A stretch of DNA of 64,000 bases from Halomonas huangheensis (GTDB lineage: Bacteria > Pseudomonadota > Gammaproteobacteria > Pseudomonadales > Halomonadaceae): NCBI RefSeq assembly GCF_001431725.1, contig NZ_CP013106.1:3410001-3474000 (forward strand). The letters are read 5' to 3'. A program made the translations under genes and the position numbers. The notes beneath the pieces were generated by a model. It had not been told where the DNA came from. It made no database searches and worked only from the letters and a program-made list of their open reading frames with translations. Shown here one piece after another: positions 5,754 through 25,914 of this stretch. The number at the start of each line of letters is the position of its first letter. The stretch's first letter is position 1.

Positions 5754-5772
5754 GATAATGCTTTGCATTATC
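5754..5772. promoter_or_regulatory. Fur box upstream of the siderophore export/import operon
   Basis: GATAATGCTTTGCATTATC is a perfect inverted repeat of the Fur half-site (GATAAT/ATTATC) around a 7-bp centre and matches both ends of the classical 19-bp Fur box. It lies about 100 bp before the MFS start at 5872, which implies iron repression of the whole 5.9-11.1 kb transcript. Confidence 0.8.
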
Positions 5773-5871
5773 TTTTGCTCTATGCGATGCTTTCGCGCCT
5801 GATTGATCTTCCACGGGTGTCGATCTGCCGCTCGTATCGCCCTTTCATTTGTCCGAGTTTCTGCAACGCTC

Positions 5872-7308
5872 ATGCCGATAGAATCGCAGCACGGCAGTAA
5901 GGTCCTGATCAGCGTTCTGCTGGGTACCTTCACCGTGAGCCTCAACAACAGTGCCTTGAATCTGGCCATCGCTGAACTGATGAATGTCTTCGATGCCAGT
6001 GCCATTCAGGTCAGTTGGGTGGTGACGCTGTTTCTGATCAGCATGGGCATGACCATGCCGCTGACCGGCTATCTCGCCGACCGCTTCAGTCGTCGGCGCA
6101 TCTATCTACTCGGCCTGTGGCTGTTTCTCTCTGGCTCGTTATTGGGTGCCATGGCTCAGCAACTCACTGGAGTGCTGCTCGCCAGAGGCATTCAGGGCAT
6201 TGCCGCGGGGCTGATGATTCCGCTGTCGCTATCGCTGATCTTCGCCAGCTATCCCTCCGAGCAACGCGGCAGGATCAGCGGCATCTGGGGTTTTGCGGTG
6301 ATGATTGCGCCAGCCATCGGCCCCAGTGTCGGCGGGCTGCTGCTCGAAGTCAGCCATTGGCGCATGCTGTTCGTGATGAACCTGCCCTTCGCGCTCGCCG
6401 CACTGATCTGTGGTCACCTCTACCTCCAGCCCGGCGGCGCCAATCGTCAGCGGCACTTCGATCTACCGGGCTTTGTGCTGGTCACATTGGGGATGGGAGC
6501 GGTGCTGTTCAGCCTCGGCACCACCTCGTCGTTGGACGACCTGCGCAGTCTCGATCATGCCGTTCCGCTGCTGCTGGGAATCGGACTATTGATTGCCTTT
6601 GTCAGTGTCGAGCGCCGCGTCGAGCAGCCGCTGCTTGATCTGTCGTTGTTCGCCGTTTCCGGCTATCGCACCAGTGTGATCATCGCCTGTGTGCAGGCTG
6701 TGGTGACCTTTGGCTGCATTCTGCTGATACCGCTGTGGATGCAGCATGCACTCGGCTTCAGCGCCTTGACCACCGGGATGATCTTCCTGCCCACCGCGAT
6801 TGCCGCGGCCTGCTGTTCTCCACTGGCAGGCAGCATGATCGATCGTAAACCGCCACGCTGGGTGGTAGCCGCTGGCCTGGTGGTCACAGCGGGCAGCCTG
6901 TTCGGCATGGGCCTGCAGAGCCAGTTGGCACCGCTGTGGGTGGTGGCCATCCTGATGGGCTTGCGCGGTATCGGTCAGGGATTCGCCTATCTGCCATCGA
7001 CCACGGTGGGCCTCAATGCCCTGCCGGATGGCAGCATCGCCCAGGGCTCGGCGATGAATAATATTGCGCGGCGGCTGGTGTCGTCGCTGGGCGTGGTCGC
7101 GTTGTCACTGTTCTACGATTTTCGGGTCAGCCAGGCACTCGCAGGCGGCGCTTCCATGCCACAGGCCAGCTCACTGGCATCCAGTGAGGCGTTCATCGCG
7201 CTGGCGCTGCTGACCTGCTGCATGATTCCATTGGCATTGACGCTGCGCCGTGAGTCTCCAAAGGAGGCCGCCGCGCCATCAACTGCTCCCTGCCGGACCC
7301 GTTCATGA
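5872..7308 (+). CDS. MFS (DHA2/EmrB-type) exporter, probable siderophore efflux pump
   Basis: A 478-residue integral membrane protein with about 14 hydrophobic helices, characteristic of the drug:H+ antiporter-2 family. MFS signatures visible are LADRFSRRRIYLLGLWLF after helix 2 and the helix-4/5 region with RGIQGIAAGLMIPLSLSLI and WRMLFVMNLPFAL. The ATG at 5872 begins a hydrophilic leader before helix 1; the frame is open 23 codons further upstream but that stretch reads like non-coding DNA. It is the first gene after a strong Fur box and overlaps the binding-protein gene by 4 nt. MFS pumps of this type sit in achromobactin (yhcA) and staphyloferrin B (sbnD) loci and secrete the siderophore. 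That role here is inferred from context. Confidence 0.85.
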   Translation: MPIESQHGSKVLISVLLGTFTVSLNNSALNLAIAELMNVFDASAIQVSWVVTLFLISMGMTMPLTGYLADRFSRRRIYLLGLWLFLSGSLLGAMAQQLTGVLLARGIQGIAAGLMIPLSLSLIFASYPSEQRGRISGIWGFAVMIAPAIGPSVGGLLLEVSHWRMLFVMNLPFALAALICGHLYLQPGGANRQRHFDLPGFVLVTLGMGAVLFSLGTTSSLDDLRSLDHAVPLLLGIGLLIAFVSVERRVEQPLLDLSLFAVSGYRTSVIIACVQAVVTFGCILLIPLWMQHALGFSALTTGMIFLPTAIAAACCSPLAGSMIDRKPPRWVVAAGLVVTAGSLFGMGLQSQLAPLWVVAILMGLRGIGQGFAYLPSTTVGLNALPDGSIAQGSAMNNIARRLVSSLGVVALSLFYDFRVSQALAGGASMPQASSLASSEAFIALALLTCCMIPLALTLRRESPKEAAAPSTAPCRTRS

Positions 7309-8441
7309 TCCAGATACCGCGACTGGCGTGTCGCCCGCTGTTGCTCACCTTACTGGCGCTCATCTTGCTGGTACTCATCTTGCCGGCATCAGGCCAGACC
7401 AGCACCGCCACCCCAACCAGTGATCGATCCAGTACCAGCGACCAGCGCACCATTACCAACGCTTTTGGCGAGACTGCGATTGATGGCACGCCACAGCGTA
7501 TCGTCACGCTCTATCAGGGAGCCACCGATACCGCTGTGGCGCTGGGTATCACCCCGGTTGGTGTGGTGGATTCATGGCTCGAGAAGCCCATGTATCGTTA
7601 CCTGCGCGACGCGCTGCAGGACGTTAATCATGTTGGTCTCGAGACCCAGCCCAACCTGGAGCAGATCGCCTGGCTCAAACCGGATCTGATCATCGCCACT
7701 CACTTTCGCCATGAGCGGGTTCGTCCGCTGTTGGAACGCATCGCGCCAACCGTGGCCCAGCGCCAGGTGTTCGACTTCAAGGACACGCTGTTGATGATGG
7801 GCGAGGCGACCGGTCGGGAGGAACGCGCCCATCAACTGCTGACCGACTGGCAGGCACGCATCGCCGACTTCCGCAGCAGGATCGCCGACCAACTAGGCGA
7901 TGATTGGCCACAGAAAGCCGCCGTGGTGCGCTTCAAGAGTGACCACGTGCGCATCTACAGCACCGGTTTCGCGGGCTCGATTCTCGATGAGATTGGCTTT
8001 ACGCAACCGGAATCGATCCAGGATGAAGGCTGGGGCATGAAGCTCTCCAGCGAGGAGAACATCCCGGTGCTGAATGCCGATGTGCTGTTCCTGCTGCTCG
8101 ACCCGAATGATCCAGCGATCATGGAGAACTATCGCCACTGGTCATCGCATCCATTGTGGCAACAGCTCGATGCAGTGCAGGCCGGTCGCGTCTACGAGGT
8201 CAACGCCGTCAACTGGATCATGGGTGGCGGTATCCTCGCCGCCAACAATATGCTCGACGATCTCTATGCTCACTACCATTTACAAGAACCTGATCTTCAC
8301 GGGTCCGGTCTTCAAGAACCCGATATTCAAGAGCAGGGTCTTAAAGAACAGGGTCTCCAGCAGACTGGCCTTGAAGTGAGTGCCCGGCAGATGCCGCTAC
8401 GCGGTGCGGCAGAAGGTGGAGAAGTGGAAAGCAATGACTAA
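7305..8441 (+). CDS. cbrA: iron-siderophore periplasmic binding protein, CbrA-like
   Basis: A 378-residue class III (BtuF/FecB-type) solute-binding protein. It has an N-terminal signal peptide (hydrophobic core LLLTLLALILLVLIL, cleavage near ASG). The mature part begins with ITNAFGETAIDGTPQRIV, followed by the usual ALGITPVGVVD, NLEQIAWLKPDLII and ERIAPTV motifs. The start overlaps the MFS stop (ATGA). The last about 35 residues form an unusual hydrophilic tail of pentapeptide repeats (DLHGS-GLQEP-DIQEQ-GLKEQ-GLQQT) absent from ordinary family members. It is similar to the binding protein at 50449. Together with the two permeases that follow it resembles CbrABC of the achromobactin uptake system; the substrate is inferred from the neighbouring synthesis genes. 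Confidence 0.85.
   Translation: MIQIPRLACRPLLLTLLALILLVLILPASGQTSTATPTSDRSSTSDQRTITNAFGETAIDGTPQRIVTLYQGATDTAVALGITPVGVVDSWLEKPMYRYLRDALQDVNHVGLETQPNLEQIAWLKPDLIIATHFRHERVRPLLERIAPTVAQRQVFDFKDTLLMMGEATGREERAHQLLTDWQARIADFRSRIADQLGDDWPQKAAVVRFKSDHVRIYSTGFAGSILDEIGFTQPESIQDEGWGMKLSSEENIPVLNADVLFLLLDPNDPAIMENYRHWSSHPLWQQLDAVQAGRVYEVNAVNWIMGGGILAANNMLDDLYAHYHLQEPDLHGSGLQEPDIQEQGLKEQGLQQTGLEVSARQMPLRGAAEGGEVESND
8277..8366 (+). repeat. 15-bp coding repeat, six degenerate units
   Basis: Six consecutive 15-bp units (for example ggtcttcaagaaccc, gatattcaagagcag, ggtcttaaagaacag) encode pentapeptides at the C-terminus of the binding protein. Units differ mostly at wobble positions. Confidence 0.7.
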
Positions 8442-9447
8442 CGGACTAAACCACCGCTCATGGAAGATCCTCGGGCTACTGCTGGGCGCGCTGCTGACGC
8501 TGAGTGCTTTCATTGCCAGCGTGGCACTGGGCACCACGCCAATACCGTTTTCGACGCTTGGCACAGCGCTGTGGCATTACGACCCGACGTCGGTTGATCA
8601 CATCATCCTGCTCTCCGAGCGTCTGCCGCGTGCGGTGGTGGCCAGCCTGGTGGGCGCCAGCCTCGCCATTGCCGGGGCGCTGATGCAGACCATGACCCGC
8701 AACCCGCTGGCCTCGCCCGGCATTCTGGGCATCAACGCCGGGGCGATGTTTCTGGTCGTGGTCTCGGTGTCGATCCTGCATCTGCGCTCCCCCGCCGAGT
8801 ATGTGTGGGCGGCGCTCGCCGGTGCCTGCCTGGCGGCGTTGCTGGTGTTCCTGCTCAGCCGTGGGCGCCATGGTGAGCTGTCGCCGTTGCGCGTGGTGTT
8901 GGCGGGTGTCGCGGTAACCGCGCTGTTCGTGTCCTTCAGTCAGGGGCTGTTGATTGCCGACCAACAGGGCTTCGAGAGCGTACTCTACTGGCTGGCCGGT
9001 TCGGTGGCGGGCCGTGATCTCGCCTCCCTCGAGCCGTTACTGCCACTGTTTGCCATTGCGCTGGTGCTGTGTGCTTGCCTGGTGCGCCACGCCAATGCAC
9101 TGATGCTCGGCGATGAGATGGTGACCGGGCTCGGTATCAATGTCGGCACCATCAAGTTACTGCTCGGCGCGGTGGTCATCCTGCTCGCCGGCAGCTCGGT
9201 GGCCATCGCCGGTATGATCGGCTTCGTCGGCCTGATCGTGCCGCATATGGCCCGCGGCATCTTCGGGCTCGACCATCGCTGGATGCTGCCCGGCTGCGCC
9301 CTGCTCGGCGCCAGTCTGCTGCTGCTTGCTGATCTGACGGGGCGCTTCCTGATGCCGCCCCAGGAAGTCCCGGTAGGCATCATGACGGCGCTACTCGGCA
9401 CGCCGCTGTTCATCCACCTCGCTCGACGGGGGGCCAGCGGATCATGA
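8434..9447 (+). CDS. cbrB: FecCD-family iron-siderophore permease, CbrB-like
   Basis: A 337-residue inner-membrane permease with about ten transmembrane helices. The ATG at 8434 (MTNGLNHR) overlaps the end of the binding-protein gene and has a purine-rich ribosome site (GGAGAAGTGGAAAG). Family marks are LPRAVVASLVGASLAIAGALMQTMTRNPLASPGILGINAGA and the coupling-helix stretch GFVGLIVPHMAR that contacts the ATPase. It overlaps the next permease by 4 nt (ATGA). It pairs with that permease as a heterodimeric channel. The local operon has no ATPase; the nearest iron-type ATPase is at 21909. Confidence 0.92.
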   Translation: MTNGLNHRSWKILGLLLGALLTLSAFIASVALGTTPIPFSTLGTALWHYDPTSVDHIILLSERLPRAVVASLVGASLAIAGALMQTMTRNPLASPGILGINAGAMFLVVVSVSILHLRSPAEYVWAALAGACLAALLVFLLSRGRHGELSPLRVVLAGVAVTALFVSFSQGLLIADQQGFESVLYWLAGSVAGRDLASLEPLLPLFAIALVLCACLVRHANALMLGDEMVTGLGINVGTIKLLLGAVVILLAGSSVAIAGMIGFVGLIVPHMARGIFGLDHRWMLPGCALLGASLLLLADLTGRFLMPPQEVPVGIMTALLGTPLFIHLARRGASGS

Positions 9448-10475
9448 GTCAGTCTCTCGCCCTATCCGACCATCACCAACAGACCTCGGATCGCCGCCGA
9501 GTCATCGGCATTACCCTGGCTCTGTCGCTGGTACTGCTGGCCAGTGTCCTTGTCTCGTTGTGTCTGGGCAGTTATCCAACTTCACTCTCGACGGTGCTGA
9601 AGGCATTGGCGCAGCCCTCGCAGAGCGATATCGCCTTTATCGTCTGGGAGCTGCGTCTGCCACGCATCCTGTTGGCGGTGTTGGTCGGCGCGGCGCTCGC
9701 TGTCGCCGGAGCCATCCTCCAGGGCATTGTGCGCAACCCTCTGGCCTCACCGGATGTGATCGGTATCACCAGCGGCGCATCGCTGCTGGCGGTACTATTC
9801 CTCGCGCTGTTGAGCGGCACGCTGAGTATCGTCTGGCTGCCTGCTGCCGCTATGCTCGGTGCCGCGGCGGCGATGCTGCTGGTGTTCTCGCTGGCATGGA
9901 AGAAGGGGGTCACGCCGGGGCGCATGGTGCTGGTCGGTATCGGCCTTTCCGCCGCCATGGGTGCGGTGACTACGCTGCTGATCGTCATCAGCGACGATGC
10001 CGCGGCGATGCATGCCTATGTGTGGCTGACCGGCAGTATCTATGCCGCCCAGTGGCGCGATGTGCTAGGCATGCTGCCGTGGCTGCTGCTGTGCATTCCG
10101 CTGGCTCTGAGTCATGCCCGGCACATGGATGCGTTGCGTCTCGGTGATCTGGTCGCGATAGGGCTGGGGGTCAATGTCGCCCGCAGTCGCCTGGTTTTGA
10201 TCGGCTGTAGCGTAGCGTTGGCCGGTGCGGCGGTGGCCTACGCCGGTGGGCTGAGTTTTGTCGGTCTGATTGCGCCGCATATCGCCAGTCGTCTGGTTGG
10301 GCGTAGCTTTGCGCGTCTGGTGCCGGTTGCCGCCCTCACCGGAGCACTGATTCTGTTGTATGCGGATCTACTGGGCCGCGTCGCCTTCCTGCCGCGCGAC
10401 TTGCCAGCAGGCATCTTTGTCTCCGGCATCGGTGCGCCCTTCTTCGTCTACCTGCTCTACAGGACCCGTGACTGA
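9444..10475 (+). CDS. cbrC: FecCD-family iron-siderophore permease, CbrC-like
   Basis: A 343-residue permease, partner of the preceding one. It shows the same hallmarks: LPRILLAVLVGAALAVAGAILQGIVRNPLASPDVIGITSGA, about ten hydrophobic helices and GGLSFVGLIAPHIASRLVG as the ATPase-coupling region. It is translationally coupled at both ends: ATGA overlap with the upstream permease and a TGATG overlap with the RraA-like gene. The assignment to cbrC over cbrB rests only on gene order. Function as a membrane subunit is secure; substrate is inferred. Confidence 0.92.
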   Translation: MSQSLALSDHHQQTSDRRRVIGITLALSLVLLASVLVSLCLGSYPTSLSTVLKALAQPSQSDIAFIVWELRLPRILLAVLVGAALAVAGAILQGIVRNPLASPDVIGITSGASLLAVLFLALLSGTLSIVWLPAAAMLGAAAAMLLVFSLAWKKGVTPGRMVLVGIGLSAAMGAVTTLLIVISDDAAAMHAYVWLTGSIYAAQWRDVLGMLPWLLLCIPLALSHARHMDALRLGDLVAIGLGVNVARSRLVLIGCSVALAGAAVAYAGGLSFVGLIAPHIASRLVGRSFARLVPVAALTGALILLYADLLGRVAFLPRDLPAGIFVSGIGAPFFVYLLYRTRD

Positions 10476-11098
10476 TGTTTCATATCCAGCCGCGCGCCAC
10501 CACCTTCAGTGCGGAAGATCTGGCGCGCTTCGCCGAGATCGATACCTCTACTCTCGGCCACTTCAGCGATTTCGGCGCGATCAGCTCGCTGACGCCAGTG
10601 CGCCGCCCGGTACGCATGCTCGGCACAGCGCTGACGGTACGTATCCCGCATATCGACGGCAGCATCATTCGCGAGGCGCTGAAGATGGCCTGTCCCGGCG
10701 ATGTGCTGGTGATCGATATGTCCGGTGACGAGCGCCGTGCCTGCTGGGGGGAGCTGCGTGCCTACGCGGCGCTGCGCAAGCAACTGGCAGGCGTGGTGAC
10801 ATCAGGGTCGATCACCGACTGGAAGCACCTCTCCCAGCTCGACCTGCCGGTATTCAGCCGCGGCACCAGCCCACTGACCACTCGTGCGCTACAGCTGGAA
10901 GGCGAGATCAACACACCAGTCGCCATCGATGGCGTCACCATCAACCCCGGCGACCTTATCCTCGGCGACGACGATGGGCTATTCGTCATTCCGCCCCACC
11001 GAGCCACTGAACTGGCGGACAAGGCGCTGGAGAAACAGCAGCAGGAAGACAGCCGCCGTCAGGAGCTGATGGCGGAGTTTCCGCAATGGTTTAAATAA
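10475..11098 (+). CDS. RraA-fold protein (HMG/CHA aldolase or oxaloacetate decarboxylase-like)
   Basis: A 207-residue member of the RraA family, which includes class II 4-hydroxy-4-methyl-2-oxoglutarate aldolases, oxaloacetate decarboxylases and the RNase E inhibitor RraA. Visible are the LGTALTVRIPHIDGSIIREAL region, PGDVLVIDMSG, GELRAYAALRK, AGVVTSG, and the C-terminal VTINPGDLILGDDDGLFVIP. Aldolases of the family carry an Arg-Asp pair that binds substrate and metal; here the pair reads Thr114-Asp115, so the substrate Arg is missing while the metal-binding Asp remains. It overlaps the second permease, so it belongs to the iron-regulated operon. A role in adjusting 2-oxoacid pools (oxaloacetate, 2-oxoglutarate) for siderophore building is a guess. 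Confidence 0.8.
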   Translation: MFHIQPRATTFSAEDLARFAEIDTSTLGHFSDFGAISSLTPVRRPVRMLGTALTVRIPHIDGSIIREALKMACPGDVLVIDMSGDERRACWGELRAYAALRKQLAGVVTSGSITDWKHLSQLDLPVFSRGTSPLTTRALQLEGEINTPVAIDGVTINPGDLILGDDDGLFVIPPHRATELADKALEKQQQEDSRRQELMAEFPQWFK

Positions 11099-11170
11099 CG
11101 GTGGTTTAGGCGGGAAGCGCTCACCGCTGCATTAGTCGTCCCAAGACAACGGCAACCATCCAGCCTGAAA

Positions 11171-11205
11171 CAGCAGAACCCCGCATTTTCAGCGGGGTTC
11201 TGCTG
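11171..11205. terminator. bidirectional hairpin between convergent operons
   Basis: A 14-bp perfect stem (cagcagaaccccgc / gcggggttctgctg) with a 7-nt loop (attttca) lies between the RraA-like gene (+) and the AcsA-like gene (-). It is well placed to end both transcripts, though long T-runs are lacking. Confidence 0.6.
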
Positions 11206-11241: not shown

Positions 11242-13323
11242 TCAGGCCGTTGCGGTATCCACGGCATCCGCCGTCGCTTGTGGCGTAACACTCGGAGTGG
11301 CCATCGGCGTAGTCGCCGCTACACGCTGGAACGGGTTGGTGGTACGCCCGGTACCGAACGGCATGCTGCCGGGGCCGCCGGCACGCTCGATGATCGGTGC
11401 GATCAGCAGCTTGTAAGGCCAGTCCTCGGCTTCCAACAGCTGACTGCGCAGTAGCTGACGATCCTCGGCAGAGAATGGAATCTGCTCGATCTGGCTATCG
11501 ATCACCTGGGCCATGGTCGCCCACAATGTCGTCACAGGGATCGCATAGTGGCCAGCCACGGTGTCGATGATCGCGCGTAGATTGACCTGAATCGCCAGCG
11601 TCTGCATCCAGAACAGCAACGCTTCGGGGTCGTCGTGATACAGGGTATTGGAGTGCCCTGGCTTGATGCAGTAACAAGGATCTTGCATACCATGCTCCTC
11701 AAGACGCGGCACGGTGATACGCAGCGAATCGTGATCGCGCAGCAGCAGGCCATCGCACTGGCCATCCTTCCACACCAGCACGGCATTCTGGCCATGGACT
11801 TCGGCCAGCATACCGAGCCGGAACATGCGCAGATTGAGCTCGAAGAAACACTGACAGAGTTCTGCGAACAGGCCGGTGACCGTCTCGAAGGAAGCTTCCA
11901 GGCCACGGTGCGCCAACCAGTCATCGAAGAAATGATGACCGCCCTCAGGCAGCGGTGTGCCCAGCGCCGCCATGGGAATCAGGCGGTAGGTCGAATCCGT
12001 CAGCAGTTGCTCGGGATAACTACGCACCATCGCCGACAGGTGGCGTGGTGCCTCATCAAATAACGTCGCCTCCTGCGGCATGAACGCCCACCACTTGCCT
12101 TCATCACACAGATACAGCGACTCCGCCAGGCGCTCATCCTTCTCCCGCGCCTGATGCAGCAGACTCGCACTGAGGTCGCCGTTGAGCATCTTCACTGCCG
12201 GCAGGTAACGCGAGGCCCCCAGTGAGTGGATCGCCATCGGCAGCTTGAGGAAGTGTGCCGAGCTGTCCATCGGAGCCATCGAACGCAGCGATGACGTTGC
12301 CAGCCATGGCGATGACTCAACCTCCAGTGTCACACACTGCCCGGCCTTGAATGCCTCGTCCAACCACTTCGGCAGTGCATGCTGATGCTGCCAGGGGTGC
12401 ACGGGAATGGCGATATGACTATCCGCCAGCCCCTGCTGCTCCAGCGCGGCTTTCAGGGCACCTTGCGTCGTTGCATCGGCCATCCAGGCCGCGGGGCCCA
12501 TATCGCTATCATCGACCCCTGCTCCCGTGGTCATCTGCCCACGGGGAATCGCCACCCAACGCAACGCGATCGGTTGGGCGAATTCGGCCATGTAGGCGTG
12601 ATACTCGTCATTGCTCAGGCCCTGCTTGGCCTTGGCGGTGGGGTGATAGGGGCGATCCAGCAGCGAGGCCCACTGCTCCATGATGGTGAAGAATTCCGCC
12701 GATGAGCGTTCCAGCAACCTACGCGTATCGACACGATGATCCACCGACAGCGCGGTCTGCTCTTCACTGACCCTCAGTGCCTCGAGAAATACTTGTTCTC
12801 CCAAGCCCAGTTCTCCTGCTTCCAGCGTCTCCTCACTGGGGACGTTCTGGCCCTTGAAGATCTCCAGCATCAACTGCCTGGGCGCCAGCGCGCACCATGA
12901 CGGCTCACCGCTGCTCTGCTGGTGGAATACCTGACTGCCGGGCACCTTCTCCCAGGCCTGAGTAATCCCCGGCTGCATCAACATGACCAGCGCGTGCCCT
13001 TCATCATGCTGCCAGCGCCACAAGCGGCTCTGCGGCTGCTCGGTCAGTAGCCAGCGCTCAGACAAATCCCTGGGCAAGCTGCCGAGCAGCGACTGCGCCT
13101 GCTCAAGCGCCAGCCACTCTCCATCGGTGCCATCGAAGAAGCCTTCCACCCACAGACCATCGACCAACGCCTGCAACAACTGATTCTCGGCATACTGCTG
13201 CGCGCTGCGTGTCTGCATGGATTCTGCTGCGTCTATCGTGGTGCTGGTCATATTGGTGGTGCTTGTCATATCAGTGGCTGTATTCATCTGCTCTGCATTC
13301 GTCGGTTCAGTTATTGAGTTCAT
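11242..13323 (-). CDS. acsA: NIS siderophore synthetase (IucA/IucC family), AcsA position
   Basis: A 693-residue ATP-dependent NRPS-independent siderophore synthetase. Family motifs are RPYHPTAKAKQGLS (ATP-binding loop), HPWQHQHALPKWL, LATSSLRSMAP, HFLKLPMAIHSLGASRYLP and, in the C-terminal FhuF-like half, EVHGQNAVLVWKDGQCDGLLLRDHDSLRI. It is longer than the usual about 600-630 residues because of a Thr/Asn/Met-rich N-terminal extension (about 35 residues) and a Pro/Thr/Ala-rich tail. Its ATG overlaps the aldolase stop, so it is the last gene of the synthesis operon. In the achromobactin locus the gene at this place is acsA, which joins a second building block to the citrate scaffold. The exact substrate cannot be read from sequence. 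Confidence 0.88.
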   Translation of the reverse strand: MNSITEPTNAEQMNTATDMTSTTNMTSTTIDAAESMQTRSAQQYAENQLLQALVDGLWVEGFFDGTDGEWLALEQAQSLLGSLPRDLSERWLLTEQPQSRLWRWQHDEGHALVMLMQPGITQAWEKVPGSQVFHQQSSGEPSWCALAPRQLMLEIFKGQNVPSEETLEAGELGLGEQVFLEALRVSEEQTALSVDHRVDTRRLLERSSAEFFTIMEQWASLLDRPYHPTAKAKQGLSNDEYHAYMAEFAQPIALRWVAIPRGQMTTGAGVDDSDMGPAAWMADATTQGALKAALEQQGLADSHIAIPVHPWQHQHALPKWLDEAFKAGQCVTLEVESSPWLATSSLRSMAPMDSSAHFLKLPMAIHSLGASRYLPAVKMLNGDLSASLLHQAREKDERLAESLYLCDEGKWWAFMPQEATLFDEAPRHLSAMVRSYPEQLLTDSTYRLIPMAALGTPLPEGGHHFFDDWLAHRGLEASFETVTGLFAELCQCFFELNLRMFRLGMLAEVHGQNAVLVWKDGQCDGLLLRDHDSLRITVPRLEEHGMQDPCYCIKPGHSNTLYHDDPEALLFWMQTLAIQVNLRAIIDTVAGHYAIPVTTLWATMAQVIDSQIEQIPFSAEDRQLLRSQLLEAEDWPYKLLIAPIIERAGGPGSMPFGTGRTTNPFQRVAATTPMATPSVTPQATADAVDTATA

Positions 13324-14129
13324 GACTCATTGGCTCCTGAAGCTGTTCTGGCGCTGGCAAGGGCGCTGCTCAATGCACGGAAGGCGATGCCACGCTCGTC
13401 GCCAAGCATGAAGGTATGTACCCCCCTGGCACGCCAATCAGCCTGGGCTTGAGACTGGGTCTGAGATTCGCGAAGGAAGGCGCAGTAGGCGACACTATGA
13501 CGCTGGGCGCAGTCGGCGACGTACTGCAGGGACTCGATAACCTCAGGATGTCCGGTCTGCCAGCTGACACCGAGCGACTGGGACAGATCCGCCGCTCCCT
13601 CGAGGATCAGGTCAAGCCCCGGAACAGCAGCAATGGCCTCGATATTGTCGACGCCTGCGCGACTCTCGATCATCGCTACCACCATGATCTGCTGATTGGC
13701 GCGAGCCACGTAATCCTTCAGCGGATACTTGCCAAAGGAGCCGGGCCGTCCGGCATTGAGACTACGATTGCCCTCCGGTGCATAGCGGCAGGCGGCCACT
13801 GCTCGTTCCAGCGTCTCGGCATCCTCGACATTGGGCAGCACGATGCCCTGGGCACCGGCATCGAGCAGTCTCAATATGGCTTTGGGATCGCTGTCGGCGA
13901 CACGTACCAGTGGCGTAAGATCGTAGCTTTCCGCAGTACGAATCATGTGCTCGATGGTCTCGGGGTTGATCAGCACATGCTCGGTGTCGATCACCACGAA
14001 ATCGAAGCCGGCCTCAGCGATCAACTCGATGGAAGCGGCGGCCGGTATCGACGCCATTACGCCGTAGCTGAGGATAGGAACCTCACCGTTCTCGGCCAGC
14101 GCTTGCTTGAGCTTATTGGCTCTCAGCAT
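13320..14129 (-). CDS. acsB: HpcH/HpaI-type aldolase, AcsB/SbnG-like citrate-forming enzyme
   Basis: A 269-residue TIM-barrel protein of the HpcH/HpaI aldolase family. Visible are FDFVVIDTEHVLINPE (catalytic His loop), PLVRVADSDP (substrate Arg), GAQGIVLPNVED, a metal-binding Glu in VAMIESRAGVDN and the Asp in EGAADLSQSLG. SbnG, the homologue in the staphyloferrin B cluster, is an unusual citrate synthase that makes citrate from oxaloacetate and acetyl-CoA; achromobactin loci carry acsB at the same position between two NIS synthetases, as here. It overlaps both neighbours (7 nt with AcsC, 4 nt with AcsA), so expression is coupled. It would give the pathway its own citrate supply when iron-dependent TCA enzymes slow down. 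Confidence 0.85.
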   Translation of the reverse strand: MLRANKLKQALAENGEVPILSYGVMASIPAAASIELIAEAGFDFVVIDTEHVLINPETIEHMIRTAESYDLTPLVRVADSDPKAILRLLDAGAQGIVLPNVEDAETLERAVAACRYAPEGNRSLNAGRPGSFGKYPLKDYVARANQQIMVVAMIESRAGVDNIEAIAAVPGLDLILEGAADLSQSLGVSWQTGHPEVIESLQYVADCAQRHSVAYCAFLRESQTQSQAQADWRARGVHTFMLGDERGIAFRALSSALASARTASGANES

Positions 14130-19547: not shown

Positions 19548-21668
19548 TTAGAAGTCGATGCTATACCCCAGAGTTACCGTACGCCCACGCCCAGCAAAGT
19601 AGCGGTCTTCGTTGACCAGAGCACTTTGCGAGTAGTAGGTGATGTACTGCTCATCAAGCAGGTTGGCAACAGCGACATTGACCTGGCCGACCGGCAGCTT
19701 ATAGCCCACGGCGGCATCGACCAGCAGATAGCCGTCGAACTCACGATTTTCTTCATCGAAGCTCTTGTCGAAAGCGTAATTGGCCTGCACAAAGGAGGTG
19801 ATTTCCGGAGTCCAGCGCGACGACCAACTGGCGATCAGGCGATCCGGCGCCACATTCAGGCCATTGAGCTTGGCATCGAGGGTGCCGTTATCGTTGCTGT
19901 CGTAGCGCCCATCCATGTGCGAGTACGCCAGCCGCCCCTTGTGATTGTCGGTAAACTGATAATCGACGGAGGCTTCCACCCCTTTGATCTCGGTTTCCTC
20001 ACGCTTGAGCACGAACGCATCGTTGACTTCCTCGACCCGGTCACCGAAGTCAGAAGATGAAACGTAATAGCTGAGCTCTGCGCCCAACCGGTCGCCTTGA
20101 TAACGCACCCCGGTTTCAATGTTATCGGTAACGATCGGACGCAGATTCTCGAAGTTGTCGACCGAGCGTCCCGGCTCGTTGATACCACGCAGCGCGCGTC
20201 CCACATCAGGCACCGAGAAGCCTTCGGAATAGTTGGCGAACAGGCTCCAGTCTTCCACCGGATTCCATACCGCACCGAAGTTATACAGCGTCTCGTCGAA
20301 GCTCGGTGAGCCGCCTTCAACCTCAACGCCGCCGTTGGCAGCAACCGACTGGTAGCTGTCGATATCCAGTCTGGCATATTCGTAACGTACTCCTGCCGAG
20401 AGCAGCAGCGACTCAATCGGTCGCAGCTCGAATTGCAGGAAGGGCGAGATGTCGGTGTACTCAATCGGCGGTACGTAGGTACGATCGGTCAGCCACAGGT
20501 ACTGTTCGGTGTTGTCGACCGTGGTATCCAGACCACCGGTAATCTTGAGGCGCTCATCCCACAGCTGATCATTGGTCAATGACAGCTTGGTGCCCCACTT
20601 CTGGGTCTCGGCCATACTCTGGTCATAGAGCGTACCCACCGGTGCAATCGACGGATCCTGGAAGTTCTTGGAGTCAGTGGCGCCGAACAGTGACTGGTAG
20701 TCCTGGTAGAACGCCAGTGCGCTGAGGTGCATGCCTGCCAGGTCGTAGTTGTCGTAACTCAGACCGGTCGTCCACACCTCATTGAAGGGCGCATCACCCT
20801 CTGGCGTACCGCGCTCGGAGGTGGTTGGCACACCATTGTCGCGATCACCGGTGACACTGAGGTAATCGCCGTTGCCTTCGATGTCGTAATGATTGACCGT
20901 GAACTGCAGACGCTGATTATCGTCGATCCAATAGGCCAGCTTGCCGAGGATGTCGTAACTGCGCGAATCCATCAGGTCGCCCTGGGTGTTGTCGACGCCG
21001 ATGTAGTCGCCATCGCCATCGAGGAACATCCCCTGATCCTCGTACCCGACAGAAAACAGGTAATCGAAGTCACCGGAGTTGCCGCTCACGCCATAGTTGA
21101 CCTTGTAGCTGTTGGTCTCGGACTTGAGCTGGCTGGTCGGAGTGGTCATCTGCACATCGACGTGCTGGTTGAGCGAACCCGGCTCCGGACGGCGGGTAAT
21201 GATGTTGATCACGCCCCCCGCAGCACCGATGCCGTTGGTAGCGTTGGCGCCCTGGATCACCTCAATATGATCGACCATCGAGTAATCGATGGTATGCGCT
21301 TCGCGGCCAGTGGGTCGCAGCGGGTTGGACTGCGGAATGCCATCGATCAGGATCAGCGGCCGACGACCACGCAATGTCTCACCGCTACCACTCATCTTCT
21401 GGCGACTCGGCGAATAGGACGGCAACAGGTTGCTGAGTATCTGAGAAGAGTCAGAGGTAATCTGGCGCTGCTGCTCTATCTCTTCTTTGGTGATGATACG
21501 CACGGTCTGTGGCGAATCCTCGGCCGTTGTTCCCGTACGCGAGGCCGTTACCACCATGACATCTGTCGGTTCTGTGCGTGCACTGTTGCTGGTTTCCTGT
21601 GCCAGGCCCGGCGTGGAGACCGCCAGCCCAAGAATCGACACTGTCGGCCAGAGTGAATGGCGTTTCAT
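19548..21668 (-). CDS. TonB-dependent receptor of the NIS siderophore locus (Acr/AleB-like)
   Basis: A 706-residue outer-membrane receptor with signal peptide (cleavage near GLAQ), a TonB box region DVMVVTASR, plug motifs (LRGRRPLILIDGIPQSNPLR, IEVIQGANATNGIGAAGGVINIITRRP) and a 22-strand-type barrel ending in YSIDF. It is the first gene of the minus-strand run leading into the siderophore synthetases, the position of the achromobactin receptor gene acr. A Fur-box-like site lies about 50 bp upstream of its start, shared with the divergent ATPase gene. By context it should take up the ferric form of the locally made siderophore. Assignment as a siderophore receptor is secure; the ligand is inferred. 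Confidence 0.9.
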   Translation of the reverse strand: MKRHSLWPTVSILGLAVSTPGLAQETSNSARTEPTDVMVVTASRTGTTAEDSPQTVRIITKEEIEQQRQITSDSSQILSNLLPSYSPSRQKMSGSGETLRGRRPLILIDGIPQSNPLRPTGREAHTIDYSMVDHIEVIQGANATNGIGAAGGVINIITRRPEPGSLNQHVDVQMTTPTSQLKSETNSYKVNYGVSGNSGDFDYLFSVGYEDQGMFLDGDGDYIGVDNTQGDLMDSRSYDILGKLAYWIDDNQRLQFTVNHYDIEGNGDYLSVTGDRDNGVPTTSERGTPEGDAPFNEVWTTGLSYDNYDLAGMHLSALAFYQDYQSLFGATDSKNFQDPSIAPVGTLYDQSMAETQKWGTKLSLTNDQLWDERLKITGGLDTTVDNTEQYLWLTDRTYVPPIEYTDISPFLQFELRPIESLLLSAGVRYEYARLDIDSYQSVAANGGVEVEGGSPSFDETLYNFGAVWNPVEDWSLFANYSEGFSVPDVGRALRGINEPGRSVDNFENLRPIVTDNIETGVRYQGDRLGAELSYYVSSSDFGDRVEEVNDAFVLKREETEIKGVEASVDYQFTDNHKGRLAYSHMDGRYDSNDNGTLDAKLNGLNVAPDRLIASWSSRWTPEITSFVQANYAFDKSFDEENREFDGYLLVDAAVGYKLPVGQVNVAVANLLDEQYITYYSQSALVNEDRYFAGRGRTVTLGYSIDF

Positions 21669-21712
21669 TGAATGCTGTATCCCTTGATGGAGCTCAAAAT
21701 GTTGGAGATTAT

Positions 21713-21731
21713 CGTAATGAGAATGATTATC
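21713..21731. promoter_or_regulatory. Fur box in divergent promoter region
   Basis: CGTAATGAGAATGATTATC matches 15 of 19 positions of the classical Fur box GATAATGATAATCATTATC by hand count. It sits between the minus-strand receptor/synthetase operon (start 21668) and the plus-strand ATPase/reductase operon (start 21909), so it could control both. Confidence 0.7.
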
Positions 21732-21849
21732 TTAAACGTGTGGGCGAACGTATGTCTAGCTTTCCGGCATAGTTCTGTATCGGGCAGCCAACGCTACATC
21801 CACGCATCAATGCTCGTTCCCAGTGGCCTCTCCATTGGCCGCGCCGATT

Positions 21850-21868
21850 GAAAATGAGAATGTTTTGT
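21850..21868. promoter_or_regulatory. weaker second Fur-like site before ATPase gene
   Basis: GAAAATGAGAATGTTTTGT matches about 12 of 19 Fur-box positions. It lies about 40 bp before the ATPase ATG and 119 bp after the first site, so it may serve the plus-strand operon specifically. Confidence 0.35.
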
Positions 21869-21908
21869 CATAGTGTGCAGCTGCTGCTGCCCAACGAGTT
21901 ACCTCCCT

Positions 21909-22859
21909 ATGCCCTCCTCTGAGTCTCGACAGCCCGGGGTCCATGCCCCCCGTTTGTATGGCGAAGGCCTGCATGCCGGCTATGAGTCGCGACACGTGCT
22001 GGACAACGTCGATCTGTCTATTGCGGAAGGCAAGGTGACGGTGTTGCTGGGCCCCAATGGCAGCGGCAAATCAACCCTGCTCAAGACACTGGCACGGACC
22101 CTCAAGCCCAGCAGCGGACGAGTAGTACTCGATGGCGAGGATATTCACCGCAGTTCGTCACGCGAGGTGGCGTGTCGCCTCGGCATCCTGCCTCAAGGCC
22201 CTACCGCACCTGAAGGACTGACCGTACGCCAGTTGGTGACCATGGGTCGCTTTCCCCATCAGCGCCTGTGGCGTCGAGACTCCGTCGAAGACGAGCGTGC
22301 CATCGCTGATGCCATGGCCTATACCGATGTCACCGATTTTGCGGAGCGTGGCGTCGATGCCCTCTCCGGCGGCCAGCGCCAGCGTTGCTGGATCGCCATG
22401 GTGCTGGCCCAGAACACCGACCTGATTCTGCTCGACGAGCCCACTACCTTTCTTGATCTCAAAGTCCAGGTTGACCTCCTCGAGCTGTTGACGCGGCTGG
22501 CCCATGAGCATGGCCGCACCTTGCTGGTCGTCCTGCATGACCTCAACCTGGCCGCGGCCTATGCCGACCAGTTGGTGATGATGCGTGAAGGGCGTATCGT
22601 CGAAAGCGGGACACCCGATGAGGTGTTTACCGCAGCTAACCTGAAGCGGGTATTTGATCTGAATGCAGAGGTGATCCGCGATCCGCATAGTGGCAGCCTG
22701 ATCTGCGTGCCGCAGAGGTTCCGTCCAAGCACAGCCCCGGCTGCCGGCGAGAAACCTGCAAATGCTGCCAGGCCTGCAATGGATGACCAACCTGCCACCG
22801 ACAACAGTGCTGATAGTGCTGCGGATAATGAAACAGGAAAGGAGCGTCGTACCTCATGA
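21909..22859 (+). CDS. cbrD: iron-siderophore ABC transporter ATPase (FecE/CbrD-like)
   Basis: A 316-residue ATP-binding subunit of an iron(III)-siderophore importer. The ATG at 21909 is chosen; a GTG 12 codons upstream is in frame but poorer. Walker A is GPNGSGKST, the signature is LSGGQRQRCWIAM, Walker B is LILLDEPTTFLD, and the His switch is in VVLHDLN. The last about 45 residues are an Ala/Pro/Asp-rich extension not needed for the fold. No permease or binding-protein gene is adjacent, while the CbrABC-like operon at 7.3-10.5 kb lacks an ATPase, so the two probably form one transporter. It overlaps the next gene by 4 nt. Confidence 0.9.
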   Translation: MPSSESRQPGVHAPRLYGEGLHAGYESRHVLDNVDLSIAEGKVTVLLGPNGSGKSTLLKTLARTLKPSSGRVVLDGEDIHRSSSREVACRLGILPQGPTAPEGLTVRQLVTMGRFPHQRLWRRDSVEDERAIADAMAYTDVTDFAERGVDALSGGQRQRCWIAMVLAQNTDLILLDEPTTFLDLKVQVDLLELLTRLAHEHGRTLLVVLHDLNLAAAYADQLVMMREGRIVESGTPDEVFTAANLKRVFDLNAEVIRDPHSGSLICVPQRFRPSTAPAAGEKPANAARPAMDDQPATDNSADSAADNETGKERRTS

Positions 22860-23863
22860 GCCACCGCTTCTGTACTGAGCTCAGCCGAGAGCAAGGTGAC
22901 CCGTTGGCCGGCAGCGCCGCCCATATCGAGCGCAATCTGCTGCTCAGTTGGCCTCGCGCCAAGTGGAAGCGCAGCCTGCGCCACGCCAGCGACATGCCAG
23001 AAGCATTGATCGAGCAACTGGATGCCATTGCGGCCAGTGGCCGACGCATCAACCTGATCCAGCGTCGCGATCACCCCGAGGATCTGCATCGTATCTACCT
23101 GATGCCCGAGCGACTGGCCTTCGACGTGCAACGGGAAGAATTACAGGATTTTCTGAGCGCCTGGCAGCGTGGAGCCTCCCTGGATGCCTGGCAACCCACC
23201 CCAGTAACACGCGACCTGGTGTTGTGCTGCACCCATGGCAAGAAGGATAAATGTTGCGCCAAGTTCGGTTATGCCGCCTTTCAGGCACTGGACAGAACCG
23301 TGCGCGAACACCAGTTGCCGTTCGATGTCTGGGAAAGCTCACACCTTGGTGGCTGCCGACTGGCCGCCAGCGTTATTCTGTTGTCACCGGTACGCAAGTA
23401 CGGGCGTATCGCCCCCGATCAAGCGTATTCCCTGCTGGCCAGTGAAGCCGATGGCCAACGCTACCTCCCCTGCTACCGTGGTGACTCAAGCCTGACCCCG
23501 CCACAGCAATGCGCGCAGCTTGCCATACTCAACCACTTCGCTGCGCAAGCAGTTCAATCACAGCCACCTCAATCACAAGCACCTCAATATCAAGCACCTC
23601 AACCCCAACTGACCCTTGAGGAAGAGTTGATCCTCGGGGACGAAGCGGGCAACGACGAGCAACGCCAACTGACATGGCGCTGTCGGCACGGAGATGGACG
23701 CACCCAACGCCTGAAGGTCAGCTGCCGAGCCATCAGCATCATGCGTGTCGACACCTGCAACGACCTCGATGAAGGGCCAACACCCAGCCTGGTGTGGCAG
23801 GCCGGCGCTGTGGAAGAGCTCCAGCCAACCACTCCCCTCCACAGCGCGCAGCCCTGTTGCTGA
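22856..23863 (+). CDS. Suc/Fer-like (sucrase/ferredoxin-like) protein, candidate iron-siderophore reductase
   Basis: A 335-residue protein of the sucrase/ferredoxin-like family, whose members have a thioredoxin-like fold able to bind a [2Fe-2S] cluster. Characteristic motifs are LVLCCTHGKKDKCCAKFG (clustered cysteines), WESSHLGGCRLAASVILL and the downstream GRIAPDQAYSLL. No signal peptide is seen, so it is cytosolic. A Gln/Pro/Ser-rich 15-bp repeat (QSQPP-QSQAP-QYQAP) links the main domain to a C-terminal about 80-residue part that ends in CysCys. It is coupled to the importer ATPase and followed by a FhuF-type reductase. A redox role in releasing iron from the imported siderophore is suggested by context only. 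Confidence 0.75.
   Translation: MSHRFCTELSREQGDPLAGSAAHIERNLLLSWPRAKWKRSLRHASDMPEALIEQLDAIAASGRRINLIQRRDHPEDLHRIYLMPERLAFDVQREELQDFLSAWQRGASLDAWQPTPVTRDLVLCCTHGKKDKCCAKFGYAAFQALDRTVREHQLPFDVWESSHLGGCRLAASVILLSPVRKYGRIAPDQAYSLLASEADGQRYLPCYRGDSSLTPPQQCAQLAILNHFAAQAVQSQPPQSQAPQYQAPQPQLTLEEELILGDEAGNDEQRQLTWRCRHGDGRTQRLKVSCRAISIMRVDTCNDLDEGPTPSLVWQAGAVEELQPTTPLHSAQPCC
23555..23599 (+). repeat. 15-bp coding repeat, three units
   Basis: caatcacagccacct, caatcacaagcacct and caatatcaagcacct are consecutive 15-bp units forming a Gln/Pro linker in the Suc/Fer-like protein. Confidence 0.8.
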
Positions 23864-23903
23864 ACGGCTGACGTCAATCTGCTTCATCAGACAATCCATG
23901 TTT

Positions 23904-23922
23904 GATAACAATTCGCATTCAA
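23904..23922. promoter_or_regulatory. Fur-like site before fhuF-type gene
   Basis: GATAACAATTCGCATTCAA keeps GATAA at one end and the CATT half at the other; about 11 of 19 positions match the classical box. It shares the core ATTCGCAT with sites at 26059 and 46545. It lies about 55 bp before the reductase start in a 114-bp intergenic gap, pointing to a secondary iron-regulated promoter. Confidence 0.45.
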
Positions 23923-23977
23923 TGCATACTGTGGGCTGGCACCTCCAGACTGCTCCGGCAGTTTCCAAGGAAGCACC

Positions 23978-24853
23978 ATGACCTCCGCCCTCTCTCGCCT
24001 CTACTGCGGCCCCCTCGAGCAACTGACGCCTCCCCTGGTCAGTACTGCTCTACCAGAGGATGCATTGCCCGCTGAGCAACTGCTCGATGCCAACGTCCTC
24101 GAGGAGCGGCTTGAGCGCCTCGCCGCAAAGCATCAGGGCAACGACATCAAGGCCATCGCCTCGATCTGGTCGCAATGGCATTTCGCCGCTGTCGTTGTGC
24201 CATCGCTGGCCGCCAACCTGCTGCTTGAGCGCGACCTGCCGGTCAGCCTCGACGAGATGGCCATCCAGAGTGACGAACATGGCTGCACCCGACGCCTGGT
24301 TCTACCGCATGAAGGCACACCGCTGCCGTCTCTGGACGCCTTCCAGCGCTTCGAGACACTCTTTCAAGGGCATGTTTCACCGCTGATCGAGATGCTTGGC
24401 TGTATCAGCGGTGCCGCACCGCGTCTGTTCTGGAACAATTTCGGTAATTATTTCGAGTACTTCGCCAACAACGCCGAACTGCATCCCATGGCGCTGCCAG
24501 GTGTGGCTGACGAAGCCATGCGCCTGGTGGACCATCGCGTGTACCCGGATGGACGCCGTAACCCGCTGTTCATGCCGGTACGCTACCTGGAGAACAGCGC
24601 AGGAGAACGCCACCGCACGCGGCGCTTATGCTGCCTGCGTTACCGGCTGGATGATTGCGAGTACTGTGGCAACTGCCCGCTGGAAGGCGAAGCGGCAGCG
24701 GCCGCCCGGGACAGTGCCGCCAGGCAACGCGCCAGCACTCGCCTGCGCAGGAATGCTGCTGCCGAGACCAACGCTGACGTGCAGACGTATACCCCGCGCC
24801 GCAAGGTGCCGACCTCCTCCGAAACCTGCCAGGTCGCATCCGGCGGCCATTGA
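23978..24853 (+). CDS. fhuF: FhuF-type ferric-siderophore reductase with [2Fe-2S] motif
   Basis: A 291-residue cytosolic protein. The decisive mark is Cys-Cys-x10-Cys-x2-Cys (CCLRYRLDDCEYCGNC, residues about 211-226), the unusual [2Fe-2S] ligand set of FhuF, which reduces iron in cytoplasmic ferric hydroxamates. The N-terminal half (WSQWHFAAVVVPSLAANLL, RLFWNNFGNYFEYF) fits the IucA/IucC-FhuF-like domain of such reductases. After the cluster motif there is a Ser/Arg/Ala-rich extension of about 60 residues longer than in FhuF. AAGGAAG provides the ribosome site. It follows the ATPase and Suc/Fer-like genes and is 17 bp before the AraC regulator. Confidence 0.85.
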   Translation: MTSALSRLYCGPLEQLTPPLVSTALPEDALPAEQLLDANVLEERLERLAAKHQGNDIKAIASIWSQWHFAAVVVPSLAANLLLERDLPVSLDEMAIQSDEHGCTRRLVLPHEGTPLPSLDAFQRFETLFQGHVSPLIEMLGCISGAAPRLFWNNFGNYFEYFANNAELHPMALPGVADEAMRLVDHRVYPDGRRNPLFMPVRYLENSAGERHRTRRLCCLRYRLDDCEYCGNCPLEGEAAAAARDSAARQRASTRLRRNAAAETNADVQTYTPRRKVPTSSETCQVASGGH

Positions 24854-24870
24854 TCCATGAGTGCTGATTT

Positions 24871-25914
24871 GTGAGTGCAGCCAATTCTCGCCCCCTCGCC
24901 GGAGGATCACCTGAGCTGGCGTCCGACGCCCCTCACCTGATCACGGTCGCGGACTTCCTGCGCTACGGCGAGCGTCACGGTATCGATTATCGATTCGCCG
25001 GCGGTGACATGCCCTGCCACTCACACTGCAGTCAGGCAGTCCTCAAGGGACGTGTCTTCGAGGAGCAACTGCGCCCGGGCTGGTACCTGACTTTCTCCGA
25101 TGTCGAAGTGCTGCACCCCTACGATTCCTGCTCGACCATGGCCTCGCCGCTGTTCGTATGCGTGGTGCTCGAGGGACGGATACAGATCGATATCGGCGGT
25201 CGAACCCAGCATATGGAAGCCGGCAATGCCTTGAGTGCTCGCCTGGCTCAGGAAGCGGCGCTGCGCGTTCACCAGCCTGCCGGTCAGCGATTGCGCACCC
25301 TGAATCTCGCGCTGGATGACGGCGCCATTGACCGCCTGGCAAAGAGCCATGGCATGGGCGAGCTGCTGAACGTCGACCGTCCCCAGCTGCATATCTGGCC
25401 ACTACCGGGATTTCTGGCTCCTGCCATCGAGCAGGCGCTGAAACCGATGCCCTCTCATGCCCAACGCCAGATGATGCTCGAAGCCCTGGGACTGCAGATG
25501 CTGGCCCTCGGATTGCCTAACGTGAGCACCATTACACGCACCGCTGGTCTCTCTCCGGACGAACAGCGTCGCCTCGAACAAGTGCGCCAACATCTACACG
25601 ATGCTCCATCCCAGCCCTACCAGCTCAAGCAATTGGCCGACATGGCCTCGATGAGTCAGAGCAGCCTGCGTGCCAAGTTCCAGCGCTGCTTCGGCGTCTC
25701 GCTGTTCGATTATCTGCGCGAGATCCGCCTGCAACTGGCCCATGAGCTATTGCGCAACGGTCAGAGCGTGCAACAGGCCGCCTGGCAAAGCGGTTACTCC
25801 CACACCAGTAACTTCTCCACCGCCTTTCGCCGACGCTTCGGCCTGTGCCCCAGCAAGATCATTCCTCATTCGAGCCTCGGTTCCGGCTCAAGACCCGATA
25901 CAAGGCGCGCTTGA
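24871..25914 (+). CDS. AraC-family regulator, PchR-like
   Basis: A 347-residue transcription regulator starting with GTG. The N-terminal about 220 residues form a ligand-sensing domain; the C-terminal about 100 residues contain two helix-turn-helix units (QLKQLADMASMSQSSLRAKFQRCFG and VQQAAWQSGYSHTSNFSTAFRRRFGLCPSKI). The second unit is close to that of PchR, the AraC activator that senses ferric pyochelin and turns on its own siderophore genes. Its place 17 bp after the FhuF-type reductase, and just before another receptor gene, suggests it senses a cytoplasmic ferric siderophore and activates receptor or synthesis genes. The target and ligand are inferred. Confidence 0.88.
   Translation: MSAANSRPLAGGSPELASDAPHLITVADFLRYGERHGIDYRFAGGDMPCHSHCSQAVLKGRVFEEQLRPGWYLTFSDVEVLHPYDSCSTMASPLFVCVVLEGRIQIDIGGRTQHMEAGNALSARLAQEAALRVHQPAGQRLRTLNLALDDGAIDRLAKSHGMGELLNVDRPQLHIWPLPGFLAPAIEQALKPMPSHAQRQMMLEALGLQMLALGLPNVSTITRTAGLSPDEQRRLEQVRQHLHDAPSQPYQLKQLADMASMSQSSLRAKFQRCFGVSLFDYLREIRLQLAHELLRNGQSVQQAAWQSGYSHTSNFSTAFRRRFGLCPSKIIPHSSLGSGSRPDTRRA

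Follow-up and report, generated by a model that had tools for sequence, protein, structure and literature searches.

How might a bacterium assemble an achromobactin-type siderophore from a locus that has no acsF? The question is raised by a locus of Halomonas huangheensis, at positions 5754-25914 of the 64,000-nucleotide stretch that we analysed in full and call the window (positions 3,410,001 to 3,474,000 of contig NZ_CP013106.1); family matches and matches to structures in the PDB identify it as an achromobactin-type (acs/cbr/acr) siderophore locus. Achromobactin contains 2,4-diaminobutyrate (DABA), and AcsF has been proposed, although it is uncharacterised, as the source of this building block (PMC3179956). 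The locus in the window has no transaminase gene: an AcsF query matches nothing in the window, and its best match in the genome is EctB, at 40% identity. We consider it likely that the locus is functional without acsF and that its DABA comes from the ectoine pathway, mainly through EctB.

The genes are arranged in opposed transcription units. On the minus strand, from position 21668 downwards, acr, acsD, acsE, acsC, acsB and acsA follow each other in the canonical order. The plus strand carries, convergent to acsA, a major facilitator superfamily (MFS) exporter, cbrA, cbrB, cbrC and an RraA-like gene and, divergent from acr, the ATPase gene cbrD and a Suc_Fer-like gene, followed by FhuF, AraC and FoxA-type receptor genes. 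Open frames are full-length throughout the acs locus. The acsE open reading frame (ORF) encodes 553 residues as read, and the translation start is most likely the ATG at 17477 (455 residues), which lies inside the last acsD codons and is preceded by GGAGGTG. The original prediction, made from the DNA alone, had named three IucA/IucC-type synthetases, a LysA-fold decarboxylase, an HpcH/HpaI aldolase, an MFS exporter, an importer, an ATPase and reductases, all of which are present with strong family matches, and the order that it gave (receptor, synthetase, decarboxylase, synthetase, aldolase, synthetase) is correct. It made no mention of the RraA-like gene or of an RhtA-like receptor next to the exporter, and it bracketed acsF without remarking on its absence.

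The three synthetases belong to the nonribosomal-peptide-synthetase-independent siderophore (NIS) type and were compared with structures in the PDB. AcsD matches Dickeya AcsD (2w02) with 675 bits versus 73 for IucA, and the SbnF model gives it 57 bits against a cut-off of 900; the next match after AsbB for AcsC (346 bits) is DesD (198), and after 7cbb for AcsA (279 bits) it is IucC (52). All six AcsD residues checked in the alignment to 2w02 (K293, R305, E442, H444, R501 and K563) are identical in the window protein; we take K293 and R305 to be ATP-site residues, and the role of H444 is likewise assumed. E442, R501 and K563 take part in serine recognition in the Dickeya enzyme (PMC3323832). 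The claim that the ATP-site residues fall one position from the AcsD numbering holds at that site, where K293 and R305 align with K294 and R306 of the window protein, and further on the offset becomes +3 to +5. In a tree of 59 synthetases AcsD, AcsC and AcsA each formed one group on one side of a branch (Shimodaira-Hasegawa-like approximate likelihood ratio test, SH-aLRT, 100), with eight synthetases from Cupriavidus, Rhodococcus, Pararhizobium and Phaeobacter, including rhizobactin-like ones, outside the three achromobactin groups. This tree was made by a quick method, gave long-branch warnings and did not include aerobactin, vibrioferrin, desferrioxamine or Staphylococcus SbnC/E/F sequences, so that the phylogenetic check proposed earlier is answered for the placement of all three synthetases in achromobactin groups, with AcsD nearest to AcsD in the PDB, and not for the comparison with those enzymes.

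The same enzyme types, three NIS synthetases, a decarboxylase and an aldolase, serve the staphyloferrin B (sbn) pathway, although the sbn gene order differs from that of acs. The structures matched by AcsA, AcsE and AcsB are presumably SbnC (7cbb), SbnH (6knh) and the citrate-making SbnG (4tv5). Furthermore, Dickeya AcsD accepts diaminopropionate in vitro (PMC3323832), so the product might instead resemble staphyloferrin B or be some other citrate siderophore with a different diamine, for which acsF would be unneeded. However, staphyloferrin B takes its diaminopropionate from SbnA and SbnB (PMC3179956), and no protein of the whole genome passes the cut-off for either (best SbnA 204 bits, cut-off 350; best SbnB 125 bits, cut-off 327). 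The Acr receptor is 65% identical over its full length to the receptor of the Sodalis pSG1 acs locus, and the nearest relatives and synteny are of achromobactin type among what was searched. We therefore regard a different diamine as quite improbable. The earlier view of a citrate-based, achromobactin-like locus is thus supported by homology, by the trees, and by synteny both with annotated loci and with the published gene table of Pseudomonas syringae B728a.

Dickeya also carries an achromobactin locus. The annotated locus of Sodalis pSG1 reads acsF-acr-acsD-acsE-MFS-acsC-acsB-acsA-cbrABCD-FhuF-like-RraA, and a plasmid locus of Thalassospira marina holds the same set, where the transaminase gene follows acsE and the receptor gene follows that of RraA. 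Elsewhere in Thalassospira (L067, 11742-14366) AcsE is fused to an AcsF-type transaminase in one protein of 874 residues, and an ORF of 874 residues also occurs in L070. In P. syringae B728a the table of Psyr_2580-2595 ends with cbrD, the hypothetical Psyr_2594 and a 'Menaquinone biosynthesis' gene, Psyr_2595, the last two being 2.2- to 2.7-fold AcsS-dependent (PMC3329529). From their position, and from matches in the relative P. cerasi (L118), these are probably the FhuF-like and RraA-like genes, respectively. The window locus shares with the Sodalis and B728a loci the order of acsD, E, C, B and A, along with Acr, CbrABCD, an MFS exporter of the YhcA kind and the RraA-like gene. acsF, which the loci of Pseudomonas, Lonsdalea and Sodalis carry, is missing from it, and it departs from canonical loci in that the importer genes and rraA are convergent to acsA, the exporter adjoins cbrA and cbrD is divergent from acr. 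It also has the Suc_Fer-like gene by cbrD, no FhuF-like gene of the canonical type and, among the annotated genes of the locus, no FecI/FecR. Since it has no acsF, we file it, on sequence comparison, as a halomonad variant and not as a canonical achromobactin locus; the 'possible new variant' of the original prediction thereby becomes concrete in the missing acsF, the opposed transcription units and the Suc_Fer-like gene.

The absence of acsF extends to the relatives. A scan of genome contigs found 201 AcsD relatives, and we used the loci of the best 80 by similarity, some halomonad stretches ending at contig ends. The nearest of them to the window locus is that of Halomonas cupida (AcsD 78%). 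Searches of the fetched stretches by tblastn with AcsF and EctB detected an AcsF-type gene in 54 loci, an EctB-type gene in one (L002) and neither in 25. AcsF-type genes are present in 54 of the 56 non-halomonad loci (one of them cut by a contig end), both exceptions being Acinetobacter, and in none of the 24 halomonad stretches. Among the kin of the window organism the locus is patchy, with AcsD at 60% identity or above in 9 of 117 genomes (its own included) and two more at 32-34%, a distribution that could be that of a silent or decaying relic. Nevertheless, the full-length frames, the retained AcsD active-site residues, the Fur-box-like sites upstream of the exporter and in the acr-cbrD intergenic region, and the conservation of the acs block across halomonads make a relic highly improbable.

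On a tree of concatenated AcsD, E, C, B and A (49 rows, 2417 columns), which took in the window, 24 halomonad loci, two plasmid loci and 22 of the 56 loci from outside the halomonads, the presence of acsF needs three changes (bootstrap 5-95% range 3-3), on the halomonad-type loci, Halotalea and Acinetobacter. The locus of the halomonad Halotalea alkalilenta (L063) is of the Pseudomonas type and lies within the Pseudomonas loci on this tree (98/99), which suggests a separate transfer; since this locus has no acsF and the genome has EctB, it is an independent acsF-less case. Acinetobacter groups with Thalassospira, Hahella and Duganella (100/100), which all have acsF, and in Acinetobacter NIPH 2100 a Dat-type transaminase (829 bits) is encoded away from the locus.

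EctB makes DABA in halomonads as the first step of ectoine synthesis, and a separate AcsF would therefore be dispensable. In the window organism's own genome a single protein exceeds the cut-off of the DABA-transaminase model TIGR00709, and it is EctB (TIGR02407 655 bits, cut-off 552), encoded between ectA and the ectoine synthase gene ectC. Among the 20 genomes searched, each of the 14 halomonad genomes with an acs locus has one protein over the DABA-transaminase cut-off, except G002, which has two, and EctB exceeds its cut-off in all 14, Halotalea and Larsenimonas included. In L002, a lineage sister to the window organism and H. cupida (98/97), a second EctB-type gene (636 bits) follows acsA in the same orientation after 76 bp, and another EctB is encoded elsewhere in the genome. 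In a tree the copy next to acsA groups within the halomonad EctBs (99/97), and its branch (0.31) exceeds in length those of the remaining Halomonas-type copies; between this copy and rraA (11313-12009 of L002) are small ORFs, one ParE-like and one antitoxin-like (a sub-threshold Phd/YefM match). As a precedent, a baumannoferrin-type locus, whose product has DABA, contains no AcsF- or EctB-type gene detectable by tblastn in its stretch of 26.5 kb. Taken as sequence evidence, the link between ectoine and the siderophore appears well supported by comparison.

Several observations weigh against this reading. The extra EctB of L002 rests on one contig of a metagenome-assembled genome. The 49-row tree was computed under a model without site mixture and drew long-branch warnings, and on the halomonad-type branch it does not separate loss of acsF from gain. 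Marinomonas and Hahella keep acsF though both have EctB over the cut-off; EctB therefore does not force the loss of acsF, and we rejected the stronger notion that it always makes acsF dispensable. In the accessible part of a study of Bacillus sp. N16-5 the iron-uptake genes go down at high salt, and ectoine genes are salt-induced in bacilli (PMC4452262). Finally, a cluster for ectoine degradation, doeA-doeB-dehydrogenase-transaminase-eutB-eutC, lies about 9.5-18 kb beyond the right end of the window, where DoeA (666 bits) and DoeB (487 bits) each exceed their cut-off and lie at about 15.6-18 kb, and it is a second possible source of DABA for an achromobactin-type product. Supply by this route would depend on prior synthesis or uptake of ectoine, and the additional gene within the acs locus of L002 is of the EctB type; we hence think it unlikely that DoeA and DoeB replace EctB as the supplier.

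With EctB preferred as the main supplier, we infer the enzyme roles, the product and the DABA source from homology as follows. AcsD, for which coupling of citrate to L-serine has been shown in vitro with the Dickeya enzyme, would catalyse this first step on citrate supplied by AcsB, and AcsE would decarboxylate the resulting product. By analogy with the staphyloferrin B enzymes, AcsC would then add DABA, drawn from the ectoine pathway mainly through EctB, and AcsA would add 2-oxoglutarate. The MFS protein would export the product, Acr and CbrABCD would import its ferric form and a ferredoxin-type reductase would free the iron.

For this last step the halomonads may use their own gene. A Suc_Fer-like gene lies by cbrD in 19 of the 21 halomonad-type loci (it was not found in L010, and the L002 stretch is too short there), and in none of the 21 stretches does any match to the Sodalis-type FhuF-like gene, which Halotalea and Larsenimonas carry, rise above a weak 44 bits. 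The Suc_Fer-like protein perhaps reduces ferric achromobactin in place of the canonical FhuF-like protein. The FhuF-like gene is not universal outside halomonads, as we had considered, for the stretches from Lonsdalea, Marinomonas and Duganella yielded none. Judged by sequence, the FhuF of the window belongs with the AraC and FoxA genes rather than with the canonical type: it is 25% identical to the Sodalis protein, and in relatives it mostly occurs with AraC and/or FoxA genes. The FoxA-type ferrioxamine receptor (26135-28297) scores 1130 bits, below its cut-off of 1300. Together with FhuF and AraC it forms a module for xenosiderophore uptake that adjoins the acs locus and is found also in H. 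cupida and H. litopenaei. The RhtA-like receptor probably serves another siderophore, because its identity to the receptor of the Sodalis acs locus is only 28%. The window as a whole holds at least six TonB receptors, and between 39487 and 55929 there are a FecCD double permease and three more such receptors (at 42347, 51667 and 53905). Searching with a 19-base Fur consensus, we counted five sites with at least 14 matches in the 64 kb (two of them overlapping) versus 0.6 expected from 10 simulated sequences.

The RraA-like gene occurs beside acs or cbr genes in all 17 genomes examined (seven halomonads, four Pseudomonas, Lonsdalea, Acinetobacter, Marinomonas, Hahella, Duganella and Thalassospira). 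A first map suggested that only some acs loci have it, an impression due to 10-kb flanks that were too short and overturned by the 17 genomes; in Hahella the gene is about 10 kb from acsA and adjoins cbrD and the FhuF-like gene. The protein is of the RraA family (PF03737), to which the 4-hydroxy-4-methyl-2-oxoglutarate/4-carboxy-4-hydroxy-2-oxoadipate (HMG/CHA) aldolases also belong. It retains the Asp of their R-D pair, whereas the catalytic Arg is replaced by Thr in the window and in all 31 loci with rraA inside the fetched stretch. All 19 acs-linked copies inspected for motifs combine GE(F/L)R with T-D, the four nearest unlinked paralogues (L126-L129) combine CWGG with T-D and nine remoter ones have R-D; T-D is thus not unique to the linked copies, as we had entertained. 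Counting the window protein and the 120 homologues listed out of 425 in the database, 114 have T-D, six S-D and one A-D; some of those listed lack the Arg of GE(F/L)R, and the homologues include Paenibacillus and Brevibacillus. In the HMG/CHA aldolase of P. putida the change R123K lowers turnover about 180-fold without phosphate, 0.086 versus 15.6 (PMC5065237). Because the Arg is Thr in the acs-linked copies, classic pyruvate-aldolase chemistry appears unlikely for them. All NCBIfam RraA and aldolase models remain below cut-off for this protein of 207 residues. We rejected regulation of RNase E as its likely role, without having disproved it, as the best model is PRK06201 (149 of 231 bits) and the enterobacterial RraA model gives 39 of 241 bits.

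A lead comes from the baumannoferrin (bfn) locus of Acinetobacter baumannii, which we compared through one unannotated 26.5-kb stretch assigned to bfn by gene order. It carries consecutive genes like acsC (46%), acsA (38%), weakly like FhuF (23%) and like RraA (42%, with GEQR and T-D); it differs in that AcsD finds a match of only 25%, and acsE and acsB find none there. We know of no RraA gene for staphyloferrin B, which contains 2-oxoglutarate, and this weakens the case for a role of RraA in the handling of 2-oxoglutarate alone. In four other NIS loci (stretches of 12.6-25.7 kb) no RraA match was better than E 0.4. Baumannoferrin contains citrate, DABA and 2-oxoglutarate, plus 1,3-diaminopropane and decenoic acid, and the RraA family gene bfnG follows the (2Fe-2S)-binding protein gene bfnF and is filed under biosynthesis with no activity stated in the portion of that report available to us (PMC10483418). 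Given that baumannoferrin and achromobactin share citrate, DABA and 2-oxoglutarate, we propose as a lead that the acs-linked RraA may act on the arm formed with these components. Taking both threads together, it is conceivable, if doubtful, that the ectoine pathway and the carboxylate siderophore of halomonads share one DABA pool via EctB, which would tie iron acquisition to salt adaptation, and that in addition the acs-linked RraA is an unrecognised enzyme for the DABA-2-oxoglutarate arm that achromobactin and baumannoferrin have in common, and either completes this arm or opens it at iron release.

Features of the achromobactin-type locus and its flank (window positions; bit scores are given with model cut-offs where these apply)
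Feature	Position	Strand	Evidence
RhtA-like TonB-dependent receptor, adjoins exporter	3312..5603	+	NF052649 RhtA 649 bits, below cut-off 1100; 28% to Sodalis acs-locus receptor
Fur-box-like palindrome, upstream of exporter/importer operon	5754..5772	.	16/19 bases to Fur consensus
EmrB/DHA2-type MFS exporter, YhcA counterpart; start may be internal, ~5872	5803..7308	+	TIGR00711 273 bits, cut-off 230; 42-48% to MFS inside other acs loci
cbrA, siderophore-binding protein	7305..8441	+	PF01497; 47-52% to cbrA of Pseudomonas and Lonsdalea acs loci
cbrB, FecCD permease; start probably inside ORF	8380..9447	+	PF01032 310 bits
cbrC, FecCD permease	9444..10475	+	PF01032 324 bits
RraA-like protein; start overlaps cbrC end by 1 base	10475..11098	+	PF03737; GE(F/L)R and T-D motifs
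acsA, NIS synthetase, SbnC-like	11242..13323	-	PF04183; NF033583 SbnC 365 bits, below cut-off 700; PDB 7cbb 279 bits; 53% to Sodalis AcsA
acsB, HpcH/HpaI aldolase, SbnG-like	13320..14129	-	PDB 4tv5 240 bits
acsC, NIS synthetase	14123..16054	-	NF033586 SbnF 520 bits, below cut-off 900; PDB AsbB 346 bits
acsE, pyridoxal-phosphate-dependent decarboxylase, ornithine/diaminopimelate-decarboxylase fold	16110..17477	-	PDB 6knh 294 bits
acsD, first-step NIS synthetase	17470..19269	-	PDB 2w02 AcsD 675 bits
acr, achromobactin-type TonB receptor	19548..21668	-	65% full-length to Sodalis acs-locus receptor
Fur-box-like site between divergent acr and cbrD	21713..21731	.	15/19 bases to Fur consensus
cbrD, ATP-binding cassette (ABC) ATPase; start may be internal	21873..22859	+	FecE model 313 bits, below cut-off 375; 45-55% to cbrD of non-halomonad acs loci
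Suc_Fer-like protein	22856..23863	+	PF06999
FhuF siderophore-iron reductase of the AraC-FoxA module	23978..24853	+	TIGR03951 163 bits, cut-off 64; 25% to Sodalis FhuF-like protein
AraC-type regulator	24871..25914	+	PF12833

Some further observations concern the surroundings of the locus and its remoter relatives. A tyrosine recombinase gene (652-1713) lies beside a tRNA-Met gene (1811-1887), and the element that it marks would extend to the left of the window; we did not adopt a genomic island at this tRNA that encloses the acs locus, the integrase being on the far side of the tRNA gene. In positions 1-3400 the only repeats seen were two-copy ones of 73-77% identity. To the right of the locus, LamB/YcsF, CT_C_D and CT_A_B genes follow each other (28383-30801), a row that resembles what we take to be the 5-oxoprolinase set PxpABC. 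Hahella and Duganella (L066, L072 and L074) have a gene upstream of acsD, the Hahella copy of which weakly matches models containing ATP-grasp. In Cupriavidus and Rhodococcus (L140 and L167) an annotated ATP-grasp gene is paired with AcsD/AcsE/AcsB-like genes, and these loci possibly represent another type of citrate siderophore.

In the literature NIS clusters of Halomonas are already in print: an NI-siderophore cluster is reported in Halomonas sp. H5, with no achromobactin assignment in the accessible part of that report (PMC12388113). Potashchelin is named elsewhere for a Halomonas. Our literature search found no paper joining RraA, siderophore and IucA, or AcsF, EctB and siderophore, and PMC10483418 alone for RraA with achromobactin. 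In a pathway usually drawn without RraA, the RraA-like gene is a constant neighbour of acs genes in the genomes checked, and a clear target. As a working rule we suggest that acsF may be absent from a functional achromobactin locus if there is another DABA transaminase. If EctB does feed the siderophore, the salt and iron stress responses of halophiles would be in competition for a single metabolite, and the yield of siderophore would be expected to track salinity and ectoine flux, which is directly testable in ectoine-producing halomonads.

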